Shown one piece after another: positions 7,677 to 31,990 of a stretch of DNA of 36,533 nucleotides (position 1 is its first letter; every line of letters begins with the position of its first letter). Source of the stretch: Deltaproteobacteria bacterium (GTDB taxonomy: Bacteria; Myxococcota_C; UBA6777). Location of the stretch: NCBI GenBank assembly GCA_002731275.1, contig PCBK01000046.1:1-36533 (forward strand). The letters run 5' to 3'. The notes under the pieces were generated by a model. The model did not search any database. It had not been told where the DNA came from and worked only from the letters and a program-made list of their open reading frames with translations. Position numbers and translations under genes: made by a program.

Positions 7677-7722
7677 GACTTTAAAATCCTTTCTTTCGTA
7701 GGTTTGGTGTTTTGAGTCTTCG

Positions 7723-7748
7723 ACCCGGTGCTGCAACACCGGGTTTTC
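7723..7748 (+). terminator. Hairpin with T-rich tail, plus-strand orientation
   Basis: ACCCGGTG (7723-7730) pairs with CACCGGGT (7737-7744) across CTGCAA and is followed by TTTCTTCTCTTTT. The tail is on the plus strand, while the nearest gene (dprA-like) runs on the minus strand with its start at 7676. It either protects dprA from opposing transcription or ends an unseen plus-strand RNA. Confidence 0.55.
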
Positions 7749-7874
7749 TTCTCTTTTACACTATCTTTTCATACCCTCCATTATACCGTCATTTCCGTAA
7801 TTTCGCCACCCTTTTTTTGTCTTTTTTTCTTCAAAAACCGCGATGGTATCGACATAATCTCTCTCCCTATTCGT

Positions 7875-8117
7875 TCAAGCATTTGCAATGAAAAGCTTGA
7901 TCACAGCTCCCACAGTTTCCAGCGCCGTAGGCGCAACATAAACAATGCGTGAGCATTGTGGGTTTGGGGTCTGTGACCCCAAGCGGGTGTGGGCAGCCAG
8001 CCCACATGTGCTTTCGTTATTGACAGAAAGCAATAAACCCATCTCACCGTGCCCCCCACAAATTCAGGGGCACGGAACAAAAATTCTGCCCGGAACGGGC
8101 CCAAGAGCGTAGTGCTC
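7875..8117. ncRNA. Array of eight to nine back-to-back hairpins
   Basis: Consecutive inverted repeats almost fill this gene-free stretch: TCAAGC/GCTTGA (7875-7900), GCGCC-gta-GGCGC (7922-7934), ACAATGC-gtga-GCATTGT (7942-7959), TTGGGGTC-tgt-GACCCCAA (7964-7982), TGTGGGC-agcca-GCCCACA (7988-8006), TGCTTTC/GAAAGCA (8009-8032), CCGTGCCCC/GGGGCACGG (8047-8075), GCCCG-gaa-CGGGC (8088-8100) and GAGC/GCTC (8105-8117). Stems do not overlap and loops are mostly 3-5 bases, one a GNRA-type tetraloop. This density suggests a structured RNA or a single-stranded DNA recombination or replication element. The strand cannot be decided from the hairpins alone. No known class is recognised. Confidence 0.5.
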
Positions 8118-8171
8118 AGAATGACGAAGAAGCGACAACGGAGCGTATGAGGAAGTGATGGCACGAGGTCT

Positions 8172-8180
8172 TGGTATACT
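8172..8180 (+). promoter_or_regulatory. Candidate extended -10 promoter for the 8300-10405 operon
   Basis: TGGTATACT is an extended -10 element (TGnTATACT) about 120 bases before the Zn-finger micro-protein. No clear -35 hexamer is seen, which is common with an extended -10. Confidence 0.35.
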
Positions 8181-8299
8181 CTCGCTCAAGAACGTGTTTC
8201 TTCATGAATTGTTTCACACAAAGTCCCAGGCTTGACGATTTACGTCTTTTCTTGTTCTCTCGAAAAGTACAAAGATCTTTTGGTAAAAAGGAGCAGATG

Positions 8300-8542
8300 A
8301 TGTGGGCACTTGAAAAAAGAAGATTAAAAGAGTTTGTATTTTGCGACTTCTGTCTCAAAGAGAGTGAAGATGTTGCAAAAAATGCTACGATTCCGCCTGG
8401 ATGGAGGATGAAAAGGGTGGATAATTTCGAACGTCACAAGTGCAGGGAGTGTCGAGAGCGACGTTGGGATGAGCTTCGAGGAAAACCACTGAGAGAGGAT
8501 ATGACTGTTGTTCTTGATGAAGTCCCAGACGAAGAAGGTTGA
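8300..8542 (+). CDS. Small zinc-finger protein with two CxxC pairs
   Basis: 80 residues. Two adjacent ATGs (8297, 8300) follow AAGGAG; the second has the better six-base spacing. CDFC (15-18) and CREC (48-51) form a likely four-cysteine zinc site separated by a loop with PPGWRMKR. The C-terminal third is acidic. The family is not recognised; similar small treble-clef or ribbon proteins bind nucleic acid or a partner protein. It is the first of three plus-strand genes with gaps of 57 and 54 bases, so it is probably co-transcribed with the potassium channel and the nitrilase-fold gene. Confidence 0.65.
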   Translation: MWALEKRRLKEFVFCDFCLKESEDVAKNATIPPGWRMKRVDNFERHKCRECRERRWDELRGKPLREDMTVVLDEVPDEEG

Positions 8543-17541: not shown

Positions 17542-20532
17542 TCACCCCTCCACGCGCAAGGTCTCGTACATCTCCTTGGTCAGTAACTTTTCCAACATTT
17601 TCCGGAACTCATCGTCGGTCAGGACATGATCCACAAATTGTCCGTTGGCCTCGTATCTATCGAGCATGTACTTGACGAAAACCTCCTTGAAAACAAGTCC
17701 AAAACCGTCTTCTTTGTTCACTCTTGCCGCTTGTTTCAACTCCTCATTGTCCATTGCCTCCAATTTGATCTGGTCAATAAAGAGTTGATCCGCTTCCGAA
17801 AAATCCGTGCCGAACCTATCATTCAAAACATCGAGCAACTTCGATAACTCGACCTTCTCTTCCTCCCCTTTGCCTGTACCAACCTCTGATGGTCCATAAA
17901 TCGGCGAAACCTCTCCTGCTATCAGCTCAAGTTGTCCTTCCGCGATCTTGTCCAGCCGGTAATACTCTAAAGACACATCATCGCTGATATTCACAGGCGA
18001 CGTACGTTCGCCACGTTTGGGGAGTTTGGAACTCAACATCCGTAAGAAGGCATACAACTTCTCAAGATCGTAATCCGCAAAGGGAATAAGCTGTCCAAGG
18101 AAGGCATATAAACGAACAAAGGCTGTGGAGAGGGAGCGAAACATCTCTTGCTCTTCCTCTTCGCGCCCCTTAAACCGATCCACCGCAGGATCAAGGTAGG
18201 CGTTCAGCTGTTTGTTCTCGGCGGCAGCTTGCTTGGACTTAGGATTGAAGAAGACTTTACCGAAATTATCAACTTCAACCATGTGATAGATCTGGGTCGC
18301 GTTCAAGTTACTTTGAAGTTCATACAACCTCTGTGGATCGACCAATTCAGCAATGGTGGTCTGCTCATAGAAAGGTTGAAAGGACGCAAGGATCTCCTCT
18401 CGCTCATTCCGAAAGTCAAGAATAAACGTGTCCTCTTTCCCTTTGTGGGTCCGATTCAAACGAGAAAGGGTCTGTACAGCCTGGATACCTGAGAGCCTCT
18501 TGTCCACATACATCGTGTGGAGTAGGGGTTGATCGAAACCTGTCTGGTACTTGTTCGCAACAAGAAGGATCTTGAACTCATCAACATCGAACTTACCAGG
18601 AAGCTCTTTTTCCTTGATCCCCTCATTCATCTCAACCTCTGTGTACTTAACCTCCGGGTTTACATCATCCTCAACTGTTCCAGAGAAGGCGACAAGGCAC
18701 TTGATGTTGTCCCCATAACCTTTTTCTTTGATGTAGCGATCAAATTCCAGCTTGTATTTGACCGCGTGAAGACGAGACCCTGTGACCACCATCGCCTTCG
18801 CTCTCCCACCAATCTTGTGCCTTATGAACTGTCGAAAGTGTTCAATCATCACCTCGGTCTTCTGAGCAATGTTGTGGGGGTGCAGAGATGCGAACCTTGC
18901 AAGAGCGCGAGCGGCTTTCTTTTTGTCGAGTTTGGGATCGTCTTCGATTTCTTTTGCAAGCCGGTAATACGTCTTGTAGGTCGTGTAATTCTTGAGAACA
19001 TCGAGGATAAACCCTTCTTCAATGGCCTGGCGCATCGAATAGAGGTGGAAGGGTGCCGGTTTGCCATTTGAGTCCTTATGACCGAACATCTCAAGGGTTT
19101 TGTACTTAGGAGTCGCAGTAAACGCAAAAAAGCTCATATTCGGTTGGGGTCCACGAAACAACGCAGCCCTGAGCGCGAGTTGGTCTGGAGCTGATAGATC
19201 GTCGGCCTCCTCTTCGAGCTTCCCGTCCACAGTACTGTCAGACAAGATCTCTTTGACCTTGAGCGACATCTCCCCACTTTGAGAAGAGTGCGCTTCATCA
19301 ACGATTATGGCGTATCGCCGGTCAGGAAGTTCCCCAACCTTGTTGGTGATGAAAGGAAACTTTTGGAGGGTTGTGATGATGATCGGGACTCCCTTGGCGA
19401 TGGCGTCTGCGAGTTGGTTGGAGTCCTTGTCGATAACCTGCACCACTCCCTGAACGTGGTCGAATTGGTAGATCGTATCTTGAAGTTGTCGATCAAGCAC
19501 TGTCCGGTCTGTGATCACGATGATGCTGTTGTAGACCCTCTGATTCTCAACATCGTGGAGGGACGAAAGTCGATGGGCCAGCCATGCGATGGTATTTGAC
19601 TTACCCGAGCCAGCAGAGTGTTGAACCAAATAGTTGGTCCCCGCACCATTGGCTTTGGCTGCACGAAGGAGCTTCCGTACCGCATCCCACTGGTGGAATC
19701 GCGGGAAGATCATCGTCTCTTTTTTGATCTCCTTTCCCGTAGAAGTTTCAATCTTTTCGACCTGGAGGTGGATGAAGCGACCCACAAGATCAAGAAGATT
19801 GTCTCTTTGCCAGACTCGCTCCCAGAGATACGCGGTACGATGTCCGTTGGGATTGGGTGGATTTCCCTTTGCAGTTCCATGTCCTTGGTTGAATGGGAGG
19901 AAGAAGGTCTTTTTCTTGGCGAGCCGGGTCGTCATAAAGACTTCATCTGGATCGACCGCGAAATGGACGAGTGTCCTCTCCTTGAACCTAAAAATCGGAG
20001 CTTTGGGGTCACGATCTTCACGGTACTGGTGCTTGGCATGATTGACCGTTTGCCCGGTCATGTGGTTCTTCAACTCCGCTGTGACCACGGGGATGCCGTT
20101 GAGGAATAGCACAAGATCGAGACTCTTCTCTGACTCTGGATCGAAGTGAAGTTGTCGGACCACGGTCAGGCGGTTTGCTGAATACTTCTCTTCTTGTTCT
20201 GGGTTCAATCCATGGGCTGGTGCAAAGTACGCGAGCCGAACGAGTTTCGCGCTGAACTTGAACCCATGTCGAATGACGTTCAGGCTTCCCTGGGAACGTA
20301 AGGCACTATCGAGGGCCTTGAGGAAGCTCTCGCGGAGGTTGTCCTTGTAGTACCCTTCGAACTTTGCCCAAAGATCCGGTTGGGTCTCCTCGACGAAGGC
20401 GATGACATCATCGGAAAGGAGGGCGCGTTCACGATCGTAGTTGTCACTGCTCCCTCGTTGATATCCGCCATGTTCGACGAGATGTTCTTCGACTGCATCT
20501 TCAAAGGCTTTCTCGGTGTGTGGTTTGGTCAT
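17542..20532 (-). CDS. hsdR: Type I restriction enzyme R subunit (HsdR)
   Basis: 996 residues, the usual length. The N-terminal PD-(D/E)xK nuclease is visible as D139 in LDLVLF and ELK (153-155). The translocase motor follows: Walker A HSAGSGKSN (305-313), DEAH (412-415), FFAFTATPKY near 475, and the helicase C-terminal motif QAVQTLSRLNRTHKGK. The C-terminal helical domain should bind the methyltransferase core. HsdR pumps unmodified DNA and cuts at a distance. The start ATG shares its first base with the stop of the nuclease gene upstream (TGATG), so translation is coupled. All key residues seen are intact, so an active enzyme is likely. Confidence 0.95.
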   Translation of the reverse strand: MTKPHTEKAFEDAVEEHLVEHGGYQRGSSDNYDRERALLSDDVIAFVEETQPDLWAKFEGYYKDNLRESFLKALDSALRSQGSLNVIRHGFKFSAKLVRLAYFAPAHGLNPEQEEKYSANRLTVVRQLHFDPESEKSLDLVLFLNGIPVVTAELKNHMTGQTVNHAKHQYREDRDPKAPIFRFKERTLVHFAVDPDEVFMTTRLAKKKTFFLPFNQGHGTAKGNPPNPNGHRTAYLWERVWQRDNLLDLVGRFIHLQVEKIETSTGKEIKKETMIFPRFHQWDAVRKLLRAAKANGAGTNYLVQHSAGSGKSNTIAWLAHRLSSLHDVENQRVYNSIIVITDRTVLDRQLQDTIYQFDHVQGVVQVIDKDSNQLADAIAKGVPIIITTLQKFPFITNKVGELPDRRYAIIVDEAHSSQSGEMSLKVKEILSDSTVDGKLEEEADDLSAPDQLALRAALFRGPQPNMSFFAFTATPKYKTLEMFGHKDSNGKPAPFHLYSMRQAIEEGFILDVLKNYTTYKTYYRLAKEIEDDPKLDKKKAARALARFASLHPHNIAQKTEVMIEHFRQFIRHKIGGRAKAMVVTGSRLHAVKYKLEFDRYIKEKGYGDNIKCLVAFSGTVEDDVNPEVKYTEVEMNEGIKEKELPGKFDVDEFKILLVANKYQTGFDQPLLHTMYVDKRLSGIQAVQTLSRLNRTHKGKEDTFILDFRNEREEILASFQPFYEQTTIAELVDPQRLYELQSNLNATQIYHMVEVDNFGKVFFNPKSKQAAAENKQLNAYLDPAVDRFKGREEEEQEMFRSLSTAFVRLYAFLGQLIPFADYDLEKLYAFLRMLSSKLPKRGERTSPVNISDDVSLEYYRLDKIAEGQLELIAGEVSPIYGPSEVGTGKGEEEKVELSKLLDVLNDRFGTDFSEADQLFIDQIKLEAMDNEELKQAARVNKEDGFGLVFKEVFVKYMLDRYEANGQFVDHVLTDDEFRKMLEKLLTKEMYETLRVEG

Positions 20533-21470
20533 CAGCTTGTCTCGTAACTCGCGAGGAGGAGTGGTTTAGCTTTCTCAAGATCGTCTAGGGATGCGATGGT
20601 GATTTCAAGATCACCCGTTCCGTAGTGTCCAATGTTGCGAACATCTCTGGTGAACCCTTCTTCTAAGGTGATGGTGTCGGGGTCCACCTTGACGAACACA
20701 AGCAGCTTCCGGCTTTGGGTGTAGATACAGGCAAAGTTTTTGATCCGCGTGAATGCCCCATAGGATTGCAACATCTTTTGTTGTACGTCGTCTCCAAGCG
20801 AAAGCAGGAAATCGCACACGGAGTTGTAAAGATCCGTCAGCTCCTGATCGGCCTTCTCTAATGCTTTCTGAAAGGTCCGGTCCTTGCTTTGATTTGACTT
20901 CGTTTGGGTTGTGGAAGTGTCCGCCCTAGGAGCGGAGGTTGTTGTTTGTAGGCTTGGGGCAGCGCTTGTGGCGTTGACTAACTCGAAGAGGATAAACTCG
21001 TCTCCGTAGAGGCGATAGCGGATCAATTCGATGTTGCGGTTGATCTGTTGGACTGCATGGACATCGTATTTGGTGAAGTCACCCGCGATGCACAAGAGGC
21101 GAGGGCTGCTCCACTCGATACATTCGGCGACTTCACTTCCCAACTTCTTCATCACGAGGAGTTGGAACTGTGCGCGGTGGTCGAGAAGCCAATCTAGGTA
21201 GAAGAGTCCTTGGTTGATCACATTCTCGTTCATCGTGCGTTTGTACTCGATGATGACGGGACAACCGTTCTCGTCTAGGCCGATGGTGTCCATACGCCCC
21301 CCGTGGCGATGTCCGGTCGAGTATTCGGAGGCAAGGAAGCGTACCCCCAGGAATGCGGTCAGGTTGCCCTCTATAAGACGTTGAAGCGACCGTTCGAGTG
21401 GGGCCGAAGCTCCTGCCAACTCTTCAACCACTTGCCCGTCAGAGATGCGAAAGAGTTTGATGTCACTCAT
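20532..21470 (-). CDS. PD-(D/E)xK nuclease-like protein with a C-terminal DUF5655-type domain, inside the hsd operon
   Basis: 312 residues. The N-terminal domain (about 25-165) has GHRHGGRMDTIGLDENG followed by PVIIEYKR: D61, E75 and K77 form a PD-(D/E)xK-type site, as in NucS/DUF91 nucleases. A Ser/Thr-rich linker (about 168-195, TTTSAPRADTSTTQTKSNQS) leads to a C-terminal domain (about 200-310) with KLLVFVKVDPDTI and FTRDVRNIGHYGTGDLEITI, the DUF5655 pattern often found beside type I systems. It overlaps hsdS by 4 bases and hsdR by 1, so it is an integral operon member. It may modulate or add to restriction; the exact role is unknown. Confidence 0.8.
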   Translation of the reverse strand: MSDIKLFRISDGQVVEELAGASAPLERSLQRLIEGNLTAFLGVRFLASEYSTGHRHGGRMDTIGLDENGCPVIIEYKRTMNENVINQGLFYLDWLLDHRAQFQLLVMKKLGSEVAECIEWSSPRLLCIAGDFTKYDVHAVQQINRNIELIRYRLYGDEFILFELVNATSAAPSLQTTTSAPRADTSTTQTKSNQSKDRTFQKALEKADQELTDLYNSVCDFLLSLGDDVQQKMLQSYGAFTRIKNFACIYTQSRKLLVFVKVDPDTITLEEGFTRDVRNIGHYGTGDLEITIASLDDLEKAKPLLLASYETS

Positions 21471-22822
21471 GCTTCTTCTCCACGCACATCGATCTTACCA
21501 GTGACTGCTGCGGTGATGAGGGCTTGACGACGTTCTTTGAGGAGTTCGACTTGCCTGACCAAAAAGCGGTCAAGTTGCTCGAAAGCAAGAGCCATTTTGC
21601 TTAGGTGAGCTGCTATCTGGATTTGTTCGTTCAAAGGAGGTAGGCAAATTGGTAGTGTCTTCAAGATGTCTTGGCTGAGAGAAGCACGAGTTACCAAATT
21701 TACGTTCCTTGCAAAATACCCCTGAATGTTTTGATTCCGGAATAGAAAAGATGAAAAGCTAGGAGCAAGGTTTCCAGGGAGAGGTCTAAATCGAATCAGA
21801 AACCCCGCAAAAGTTACTTTTGATATTTCTTGGAGGCAAGTTGATGCAATTCCAATGTCATCGATTGTTTCGGATGTGCGGGTAAAGAGAACGTCACCAA
21901 CCCTCAAGCTGTATTTCATTTGGTCATTTACAGAACTGCGGACAAGACCAACTGGGTTGCTCGGCAAAATAGCATTGTTGTACACATCACCGTAGCTGAT
22001 GAATGGATCTCCCGAACCAAAAGAATCGCCGCCGATGTTTAGTCCATTTTGCAGTTGACCGAGATAACCTAGCTTCATAACTCTCCAATGCTCTGGAATC
22101 TCACCAATCCAAGGCACTCCTGAGTCCTTCATGGGGACGTCGGGGTTCAGGCCCTTAGTGACGGCGTGGTTGATGAGTGCGGCTCGTTTCTCCTCCAGCA
22201 AGGTAAGCAACCTTTGCTTCTTCTCGATGATGGAGTCGATGGCGGCGGTCTTACGGTCCAGGTAGGAGGCGATGGCGTGTTGTTCTTCCAACTTGGGAAC
22301 AAGAACAGGAAGTCCCCCGATCTTGTCCTGTGAGATGGTTGTCATGGTTGTTGTTTGGGCTAGGGAAATGAGTCTGTCCCGTATAGTTCGTGAATGAAGA
22401 TAATAGGTTACGAACCTACTATTGACGCGATTTTTATGAGGTCTTCCTCCAACAAGATGACACTCGAAAACCCTTGTCTCTTCACTCTCTTTTGCACAAG
22501 CAGCAATCGCAATACCTTCTAACTTTAGAGACGAACGAACGAAAAAGAGATCTCCACCATGCACCCCAAACATCTCGACTTCTTTGGGCGTTGTCTCTAC
22601 TCTTTCGAGGGTGTCATCGTTGATGTAAAAGTCACCGGAGTAAAGGTCGGAAACGTTTACAAGTTTCGTTCCTCTTCCGAATTGGTCTTTCTTCTTGAAA
22701 AGACCATTGCGTAAGCCACCTTCAAGCAGAAACTTGAGGCGAATTGTCTCCCAACACTCCGGGATCTCTCCAATCCATGGCACTCCAGAGTCCTTCATAT
22801 CCGGGTAGGTCTTCACCTTCAT
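21467..22822 (-). CDS. hsdS: Type I specificity subunit (HsdS)
   Basis: 451 residues with the two-halved HsdS layout. Each target-recognition domain is introduced by the same motif, MKDSGVPWIGEIPE plus CW or HW (residues about 9-24 and 231-246). The first conserved helix is EEQHAIASYLDRKTAAIDSI with LLEEKRAALI; the second is LNEQIQIAAHLSKM with LLKERRQALITAAV. The recognition domains read two half-sites of a bipartite DNA sequence; the sequence cannot be predicted here. It overlaps hsdM and the nuclease gene by four bases each (ATGA). The duplicated DNA encoding the shared motif is a possible site for domain exchange by recombination. Confidence 0.95.
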   Translation of the reverse strand: MKVKTYPDMKDSGVPWIGEIPECWETIRLKFLLEGGLRNGLFKKKDQFGRGTKLVNVSDLYSGDFYINDDTLERVETTPKEVEMFGVHGGDLFFVRSSLKLEGIAIAACAKESEETRVFECHLVGGRPHKNRVNSRFVTYYLHSRTIRDRLISLAQTTTMTTISQDKIGGLPVLVPKLEEQHAIASYLDRKTAAIDSIIEKKQRLLTLLEEKRAALINHAVTKGLNPDVPMKDSGVPWIGEIPEHWRVMKLGYLGQLQNGLNIGGDSFGSGDPFISYGDVYNNAILPSNPVGLVRSSVNDQMKYSLRVGDVLFTRTSETIDDIGIASTCLQEISKVTFAGFLIRFRPLPGNLAPSFSSFLFRNQNIQGYFARNVNLVTRASLSQDILKTLPICLPPLNEQIQIAAHLSKMALAFEQLDRFLVRQVELLKERRQALITAAVTGKIDVRGEEA

Positions 22823-24876
22823 CCCAACACCTCCGCGAGCATACCTTGAAGCTCGGATTCGAGTTGTCGGATTTCCGCATCAATGTCTTCGAGAGGGCGG
22901 GGTGGTGTGTACAGGTAGAAATGACGAGTAAAGGGGATCTCATACCCCACCTTGGTCTTTTCGTAATCCACCCAAGCATCTGGGACATGAGGAAGTACCT
23001 CTCGTTCCATGTAAGCGTCGATGTCTTCCTTGAGTGGGACGTTCTCGTAATCGCGAAGAGTCGTGTCGGGTTCGGGTTGGTTTTTCTTGTCCAGACAGAC
23101 CTCAGCGGTTTCGTCTCGCTCCGAAAGGGCGTTCAGAATCGACTTCTGGAGCGATGCCGGAAACTTGACCCCTGCACCCTTGGCTTTGGCTTTGAGGTCC
23201 TTCAAGAACACCTCACGGTCTTTGTAGACGGTGTCAGGGTCGAGGGATTGGACGACTCCCAAGATCGCCTCCTGTTGGCTTCTTCCCAACGCGATCTCCG
23301 CCTGTATCGCCTTCTCGTCTTTCTTCTTCTTCGACTTCGCGAGGTTTTGGTAGGCTTTTTCCTCCAACAACCGGGCGATGCGTTCCTCAGATGCCTGGAA
23401 GTTGAGTCGGAGAGGACGCTCAACGGTGATACGAGAGAAGCCGAAATCCTCGTTGTCGAAGATCTTGGAGAACTCGCCCTCTTCAAAGTCGCCGTAAAGC
23501 TCGGTGATGTCTTCGATGTGCTTCTCGGAGAGTTCTTTACGTTTATCACCCAAAGACTTTCGCATCTTCTGGAAGAAGTCCACAGCGTTGATCAGTTGAA
23601 CCTTGCCCTTGCGGAGGGGAGTTTTGCGGTTGGTCACGACCCAAATGTAGGTGTTGATGCCTGTGTTGTAAAACATCTGATCGGGCAAAGCGATGATGGC
23701 TTCGAGCCAATCGTTTTCGATGATCCACTTACGGATGTTGCTCTCTCCTGATCCAGCTGCACCAGTGAAGAGAGGCGAACCGTTGAAGACGATGGCAATA
23801 CGGGTTCCGCCTTGGTCAACAGGTTTCATCTTGGAGATCATGTGTTGTAGGAAGAGCAGAGAACCGTCGTTGATACGGGGAAGCCCTGCGCCATAGCGAC
23901 CGTCATAACCTCTTTCCTCGTGTTCCTTCTCAACGGCTTTTTTGATCTTCTTCCAAGAGACACCGAAGGGGGGATTGGAGAGACAATAGTCGAAGGTCTT
24001 ACCTGCATGACCGTCACCTTCGACCCTCTCGTTGTTCACTATTTTTGACGGGACAAGGCTGTTGCCAAACTGGATGTTCTCAGGATCTTGCCCCTTGAGA
24101 AGCAAGTCGGACTCACAGATCGCATAAGACTCAGGGTTCAACTCTTGGCCGAACGAAACGAGGCGAGCTTCTGGGTTCAACTCTTTGGTGAGGTATTCCT
24201 CTGCAACCGAAAGCATCCCTCCTGTCCCACAAGCAGGGTCAAAAATTGTACGGACTGTTCCTTTGGTTCGAAGTCCTGTGGTGTCCTCAGAGAAAAGGAG
24301 GTTGACCATCAGCCGAATGACTTCGCGAGGTGTGAAGTGTTCCCCGGCGGTCTCATTTGACTGCTCCGAGAATTTTCGGATCAACTCTTCAAAGATGTAC
24401 CCCATCTCCAGATTGGACACGCTTGTAGGGCTAAGATCTACTTTCTTTTTATCGCAAAACTCCTGGACAACGATGTAGAGAAGATTGGCTTTGTTCAGGC
24501 GTTCGATTTGAGTCTCAAAACGAAAATATTCGAGGATGTCTTGGACGTTCTGTGAGAAACCCTTGACGTAACTCCCAAGATCCGAGGCAATCTGGTCATG
24601 AGCAAGGGTCTCAAAGGTCAACTTGCTTGTGTTGTAGAAGGACTGTCCCGAAGCCTTGAGAGCCATCTGGTGACGAAGGGCGTCTGGTTTGTCTTTGTAC
24701 TTCTCGACGGAGGCCCAAACATCTTTTCTCGTGCCTTCAAGGACAAGATCGAGGCGACGGAGGACTGTGAAGGGAAGGATGACGCGACCATATTCGGACT
24801 GCTTGTAGTCACCACGAAGAAGATCGGCGACGGACCAGATGAAATTGACCTTTTCGGAGAAATTGTGCATGGGCAT
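22819..24876 (-). CDS. hsdM: Type I DNA methyltransferase subunit (HsdM)
   Basis: 685 residues, start ATG 24876 (a second ATG is two codons on). It has the N-terminal helical domain (LRGDYKQSEYGRVILPFTVL), GEHFTPREVIRLM (178-190), SAM-binding motif FDPACGTGG (212-220) and catalytic NPPFG (301-305), which marks N6-adenine methylation of the N-P-P-F type. The C-terminal 200 residues are helical and bind HsdS. It is longer than short HsdMs (about 500) because of an extended C-terminal region. It is the first gene of the operon hsdM-hsdS-nuclease-hsdR; the promoter should lie in 24877-25120, where no clear hexamers are seen. Confidence 0.95.
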   Translation of the reverse strand: MPMHNFSEKVNFIWSVADLLRGDYKQSEYGRVILPFTVLRRLDLVLEGTRKDVWASVEKYKDKPDALRHQMALKASGQSFYNTSKLTFETLAHDQIASDLGSYVKGFSQNVQDILEYFRFETQIERLNKANLLYIVVQEFCDKKKVDLSPTSVSNLEMGYIFEELIRKFSEQSNETAGEHFTPREVIRLMVNLLFSEDTTGLRTKGTVRTIFDPACGTGGMLSVAEEYLTKELNPEARLVSFGQELNPESYAICESDLLLKGQDPENIQFGNSLVPSKIVNNERVEGDGHAGKTFDYCLSNPPFGVSWKKIKKAVEKEHEERGYDGRYGAGLPRINDGSLLFLQHMISKMKPVDQGGTRIAIVFNGSPLFTGAAGSGESNIRKWIIENDWLEAIIALPDQMFYNTGINTYIWVVTNRKTPLRKGKVQLINAVDFFQKMRKSLGDKRKELSEKHIEDITELYGDFEEGEFSKIFDNEDFGFSRITVERPLRLNFQASEERIARLLEEKAYQNLAKSKKKKDEKAIQAEIALGRSQQEAILGVVQSLDPDTVYKDREVFLKDLKAKAKGAGVKFPASLQKSILNALSERDETAEVCLDKKNQPEPDTTLRDYENVPLKEDIDAYMEREVLPHVPDAWVDYEKTKVGYEIPFTRHFYLYTPPRPLEDIDAEIRQLESELQGMLAEVLG

Positions 24877-31768: not shown

Positions 31769-31941
31769 TGTGGAAATCTGCATAGTCTGCACTCTCAGCT
31801 CATCTGTCTCCCTTCGCAAATGACCCAATGCACTCTCATCAACCCAATCCCTCAAAAACATTCACAATCTTGTAGTAGGGGATGATTTTATCCCAAGTAC
31901 TTTGGAAGTAAAAAGGGGAACAGTCTCAAATTTAAAATGAC

Positions 31942-31990
31942 TTGGGGTGGACGGCCACCCCAAACCCCCCAGTGGGATGCTTTGCATCCC
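31942..31990. repeat. Two adjacent perfect hairpins
   Basis: TTGGGGTGG-acgg-CCACCCCAA (31942-31963) and GGGATGC-ttt-GCATCCC (31974-31990). The first shares the TTGGGGT/ACCCCAA stem with one hairpin of the array at 7964-7982, and the style (short loops, back to back) is the same. A related but shorter element is plausible. Confidence 0.5.

Follow-up and report, generated by a model that had tools for sequence, protein, structure and literature searches.

A dispersed multi-hairpin repeat, probably mobile as folded single-stranded DNA, in the genome of a Deltaproteobacteria bacterium

Introduction

What could a chain of nine consecutive hairpins be doing in a gene-free segment of a bacterial chromosome? 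The question is raised by positions 7875–8117 of the window, that is, the whole stretch of 36,533 nucleotides of contig PCBK01000046.1 analysed here. We asked whether this array is real, whether it recurs in the same genome (hereafter the own genome) and in others, and which of the roles that can be imagined for it is best supported.

Results

All nine inverted repeats are present in the sequence (Table 1). Non-overlapping stems of at least 5 bp contribute 54 pairs between 7875 and 8117, as compared to 12.6 ± 6.3 in dinucleotide shuffles (0 of 300 reach 54), and no other 243-nt stretch of the window ranks higher for stem pairs. The nine-hairpin array claimed in a preliminary description of this DNA is thus borne out. 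RNA folding of the array gave z scores of -6.3 on the + strand and -4.3 on the - strand. Rfam returned no match in the window at the gathering threshold and nothing that could be accepted at a permissive one, the best sub-threshold candidate being Acido-Lenti-1 (17.6 of 37 bits). What did not hold is the homogeneity implied by a single tandem array: the hairpins are there, but they form a mosaic in which the repeated family is limited to 7917–8006. A 1.5-Mb sample of the own genome contained no second copy of 7865–7920 or of 8005–8130. Since neither 7875–7900 nor 8009–8117 recurs in these 1.5 Mb, the family accounts for only four of the nine hairpins; the five located outside 7917–8006 are local sequence adjoining a repeat copy. 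The shorter element of the same style that had been pointed out at 31942–31990 also stands above chance, with 16 pairs as compared to 4.4 in shuffles (0 of 300 reach 16). Its - strand gives a weak match to the HP3 portion of tail model R2, described below (13 bits, E 0.044), and a DNA search of the own genome found no other copies of 31940–31990. It is a possible distant relative.

Table 1. Positions of the core repeat unit, its hairpins and the neighbouring elements in the window.
Feature	Position	Strand	Evidence
Core repeat unit HP1–HP4, dispersed family	7917–8006	+	46 places by DNA, at least 127 by model R1; R1 99 bits here
HP1, GCGCC-GTA-GGCGC	7922–7934	+	10 distinct arm pairs among copies, mostly compensated
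HP2, ACAATGC-GTGA-GCATTGT	7942–7959	+	all 7 pairs changed on both sides across copies
HP3, GTTTGGGG...CCCCAAGC, T-G wobble	7962–7984	+	6 of 8 pairs changed on both sides
HP4, GTGGGC-AGCCA-GCCCAC, outward-facing end of the unit	7989–8005	+	5 of 6 pairs changed on both sides
Hairpin beside the unit, 6-bp stem, not family	7875–7900		no second copy in the 1.5-Mb sample
Adjacent hairpin, not family	8009–8032		stem calls; 1.5-Mb copy search
Adjacent hairpin, perfect 9-bp stem CCGTGCCCC/GGGGCACGG, not family	8047–8075		stem calls; copy search
Adjacent hairpin GCCCG-GAA-CGGGC, not family; terminator-like on the - strand	8088–8100		
Adjacent hairpin GAGC-GTAGT-GCTC, not family	8105–8117		stem calls; copy search
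Shorter element of the same style: hairpin, ACTGGGGGGTT linker, hairpin	31940–31990	-	above shuffles; weak R2 match

The own genome (10.75 Mb in 200 contigs, 95% complete) matches the query 7800–8200 at 46 places by DNA, and the matches outside the window are confined to the part around 7907–8007. The copy count that the preliminary description had suggested as a check is high: a covariance model, R1, built from 18 copies, identified at least 127 (150 of 4400 candidates scored), and the 11 copies present in 0.69 Mb, made up of 38 contig stretches selected without regard to copies, extrapolate to about 170 per genome. Most copies are solo. Several inverted pairs share a middle, producing composites of about 440–500 nt that carry inverted cores at their two ends. 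The window copy is bounded left and right by unique sequence; many others have additional short modules (CCAAGCGGAGCGCGGCAG; GGGCGAGTGGCAACTCGCCC) after the core. By DNA, no match to the repeat was found in 40 other genomes; the exact own-type pattern gave none in GTDB genomes, among which the own genome is possibly left out, and we found no description of these repeats in the literature. No target duplication was recognised by eye around the own-genome copies, whose unit ends are uncertain. An empty-site search, in which rows with flanks near the locus start were left out, gave only array-to-array or other-repeat matches; a lead at L154 turned out to be a different repeat. A long inverted duplication near a contig end (L116, 14300–18980) holds three core copies and extends into a flanking gene; it was rejected as a transposon because the homology continues past the arrays. 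Elsewhere, a pentapeptide-repeat-like gene lies between two outward-facing cores, as if it were the cargo of a composite (L111, 11706–12766). The own-genome sample L082–L161 also contains a possible CRISPR repeat with ACAAGGATTGAAAC, in about 50 copies, and an abundant long intergenic module with CCTTTCGAGAGGAGGGA.

The repeat unit is 90 nt long and consists of HP1, a short A-rich linker (AACATAA), HP2, a G-rich linker, HP3, another G-rich linker and HP4. Compensatory changes among copies, proposed earlier as a check on the array, are very strongly in evidence. In an alignment of 75 distinct copies, which was fitted to the structure and hence leans towards it, pairing is kept in 98% of cells, double changes occur at 19 of the 22 pairs, and 145 cells carry a double change as compared to 38 when shuffled (0 of 500 reach 145). 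Sliding the stem partners abolishes the signal, and an independent parse of the raw copies gave the same picture, including the 10 arm pairs of HP1, a hairpin that the covariance model leaves unpaired. The structure is therefore real. However, template switching between the two arms can also introduce matching changes into paralogous palindromes, so that covariation by itself does not prove selection on the fold.

On the core's own strand, almost every loop of HP1 and HP2 is a GNA triloop or a GNNA tetraloop. With either strand allowed, this rule holds for 44 of 52 distinct perfect array hairpins versus 71 of 531 hairpins in coding DNA. GNA and GNNA loops are stable DNA mini-hairpin classes, whereas RNA favours GNRA, and several of the loops (GATA, GTCA, GACA) are GNNA yet not GNRA. 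The loops thus give a hint of single-stranded DNA. The T-G wobble of HP3 is kept in 68 of the 75 copies; because it corresponds to an A-C mismatch on the opposite strand, one strand is singled out.

Placement statistics were obtained from the 1.5-Mb sample, which was partly chosen for holding copies and is 84% coding according to genes called with a dicodon model. Overlap with a gene call exceeds 20 bases in 3 of 73 copies; the three are on a single contig, where the same dubious ORF is probably involved. The 54 occupied regions comprise 31 tandem, 19 convergent and 4 divergent gaps, convergent gaps being enriched (P 3e-4) and divergent ones depleted (P 2e-5). Orientation relative to the genes is even in tandem regions (18 vs 20), and copies at most 700 bp apart show the '-+' arrangement in 12 of 14 cases. 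The same placement and inverted pairing have been published for REPs (PMC3733652).

Divergent genes flank only a few copies, among them that of the window, which lies between dprA and a K+ channel operon. The gene labels first given to this operon survive in part: Pfam supports the K+ channel, and the Zn-finger and nitrilase labels have no Pfam match. We found no link between the array and the function of the flanking genes. Ahead of the K+ channel lies an 80-aa ORF (8300–8542, +) with several cysteines that give it the look of a Zn-ribbon, again with no Pfam match. On the other side, just upstream of the divergent dprA start, an intrinsic-terminator-like hairpin GACCCGGTGCTGCAACACCGGGTT is followed by TTCTTCTCTT (7722–7745, +), with no + strand gene before it. 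Further away, a type I restriction-modification operon (17542–24876, -) encodes an HsdR-like helicase, a DUF5655 protein, HsdS and HsdM.

This distribution, with convergent gaps enriched and divergent promoters depleted, could be that of a cis-acting RNA at mRNA 3' ends (a stabiliser, an RNase barrier or a weak bidirectional terminator) that benefits the host and spreads only secondarily. Such an element would also agree with the conserved T-G wobble, with loops that are stable on one strand and with the RNA fold z of -6.3. We nevertheless consider it unlikely: orientation in tandem regions is even despite the strand asymmetry of the fold, the element is missing from another genus of the family (see below), the window copy itself sits between divergent genes, and the core contains one weak terminator-like match only. 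Somewhat more doubtful still is a chromosomal protein-binding array with a role in DNA organisation or supercoiling, like the one suggested for gyrase or IHF at BIMEs. The clustering of modules and inverted pairs would suit it, as would a position between genes that converge, at which positive supercoils come together; but the stem sequences vary freely while pairing is kept, unlike in a duplex-binding site, and there is no known binding protein here. The strong fold, located upstream of a + strand operon and preceded by two weak promoter-like sites, might finally suggest a riboswitch-like leader or a small RNA, structured and local, that controls the K+ channel operon. This is very improbable given that Rfam gives no match, that the copies have many unrelated genes as neighbours, in either orientation, and that the flanks of the window copy are unique.

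Outside the own genome, R1 found weak yet systematic matches in two genomes of a sister genus and none in a further genus of the family, for which two genomes were scanned. The core unit and the sister-genus element have in common the tail HP3-linker-HP4; the remainder is not shared. Tail loci come from the Myxococcota MAGs MAG.451 and KLAP109, which appear to be the two sister genomes. In part of the sister-genus copies, the tail is flanked on either side, at a constant distance, by a 13-nt end, TAGGACTTACGCA. It was counted 81 and 72 times in the two sister genomes and was absent from the other three, the reversed control giving 0 in both carriers. Paired TAGGACTTACGCA ends delimit elements of 116 bp and of 167–174 bp, and target duplications of 5–6 bp accompany 14 of 28 candidate pairs, as well as 4 of the 8 short elements with a recognisable tail. 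The tail carrier of the sister genus is a MITE of about 171 bp with 13-bp terminal repeats and 5–6-bp target duplications. These two hallmarks in a tail-bearing element show past transposition of a tail carrier; since TAGGACTTACGCA is absent from the own genome, this evidence concerns only a relative with which the tail is shared. The 116-bp MITE found in G002 and G004 (for example L192, 7379–7494, and L322, 1121–1236) likewise has TAGGACTTACGCA ends and 5–6-bp target duplications, with no recognisable hairpin tail.

The exact 29-nt tail pattern also occurs in the Clostridia MAGs RGIG3115 and RGIG6199, in Bacillota S20M_St_24 and in Acutalibacter sp. 1XD8-33, where the tail model R2 identified 31, 49, 6 and 39 copies, respectively, as compared to at least 150 in each sister genome. 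R2 matched 1 of 36 unrelated genomes and, at a strict cut-off with stricter filters, 3 of 291 genomes from the class to which the Acutalibacter record belongs. Looser relatives follow the general pattern hairpin, GGGGT, hairpin, (Y)GGGGT, hairpin. The tail pattern was absent from IMG/VR, and the tail query gave no match in plasmids and phages. Because the tail is short and G-rich, its spread may reflect descent, transfer or convergence. We put forward only tentatively the idea that the tail belongs to an unnamed class of single-strand DNA elements, 'hairpin-GGGGT-hairpin', with a patchy distribution over the Myxococcota-like lineage studied here, some Clostridia and one or more other lineages; the enzyme moving them would be one that nobody has so far connected with repeats of this type.

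Four Y1_Tnp matches were found in the own genome. At the loci that were read, an IS605-type TnpA has a TnpB-like gene next to it, which gives no indication of a RAYT. A RAYT was rejected as mobiliser on this ground, only IS605-type Y1 transposases having been found in a genome that is 95% complete and may thus have a missed gene. One array lies beside an IS605 copy on contig C11; the association looks coincidental, other copies of that IS being without an array.

Discussion

The hairpins at 7917–8006 are probably one copy of a non-autonomous, REP/BIME/MITE-like interspersed repeat that is moved in trans as a folded single strand. This reading is favoured by the dispersed, orientation-neutral copies, which occur in inverted pairs, and by the presence of the tail in a sister-genus MITE. 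The core family is best read as selfish-looking, rather than as an RNA gene. Among the three roles initially proposed for the array, that of a folded single-strand substrate thus gains support from the dispersed intergenic repeat and the sister-genus MITE, in preference to an RNA gene or a regulator of the operon nearby.

A possible mechanism for such a repeat can be outlined. The hairpins would be the form in which the single strand is recognised by a trans-acting enzyme, or in which it survives. Copies may spread when a transposase or endonuclease supplied in trans acts on the folded strand, the lagging-strand template being one example of where this could happen. The unit often occurs in inverted pairs with HP4 outward, and some of these pairs form the composites with a shared middle. 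The bias towards gene 3' ends could then be the outcome of selection against insertion into promoters.

The present case shows that a REP-like repeat may consist of several hairpins in a row, with strong compensatory evolution but no RAYT, and in a sister genus such a multi-hairpin chain is tied to a MITE with target duplications. The tail in unrelated Clostridia offers a concrete handle, in the form of a model and a set of genomes, towards finding the mobilising enzyme. A caution also follows, since covariation among paralogous copies alone is no proof of an RNA gene. The repeat is moderately interesting for its multi-hairpin form and for a tail common to several phyla, and ordinary as regards its neighbouring genes.

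Among known systems, the palindromic REP, BIME and REPIN repeats, with their GTAG and CGTC superfamilies (PMC3733652, PMC3116915), resemble the core family in being high-copy, intergenic, palindromic and often arranged in close inverted pairs; both favour convergent and tandem gaps and avoid divergent ones. However, a REP unit is a single hairpin of 20–40 bp with an unpaired GTAG or CGTC tag at one end, whereas the core unit has four hairpins in about 90 nt and no such conserved motif, either in the 18-copy consensus or in the aligned copies. REPs moreover flank a RAYT (TnpA_REP) gene, none of which was found in the own genome. The core family is therefore no classical REP. Like MITEs, it is short, non-coding and present in high copy. 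Inverted ends occur in its composites, most copies being solo; for the own-genome copies, whose ends are uncertain, no target duplication or empty site was found, and no parent transposon was seen in passing, while the sister-genus element has both terminal repeats and target duplications. The IS605 copies of the own genome carry TnpA and TnpB, in contrast to the core family. Nevertheless, IS200/IS605 ends and TnpA_REP systems use a hairpin on one strand as recognition substrate (PMC6006769), and the core hairpins may, by analogy only, be likened to such substrates.
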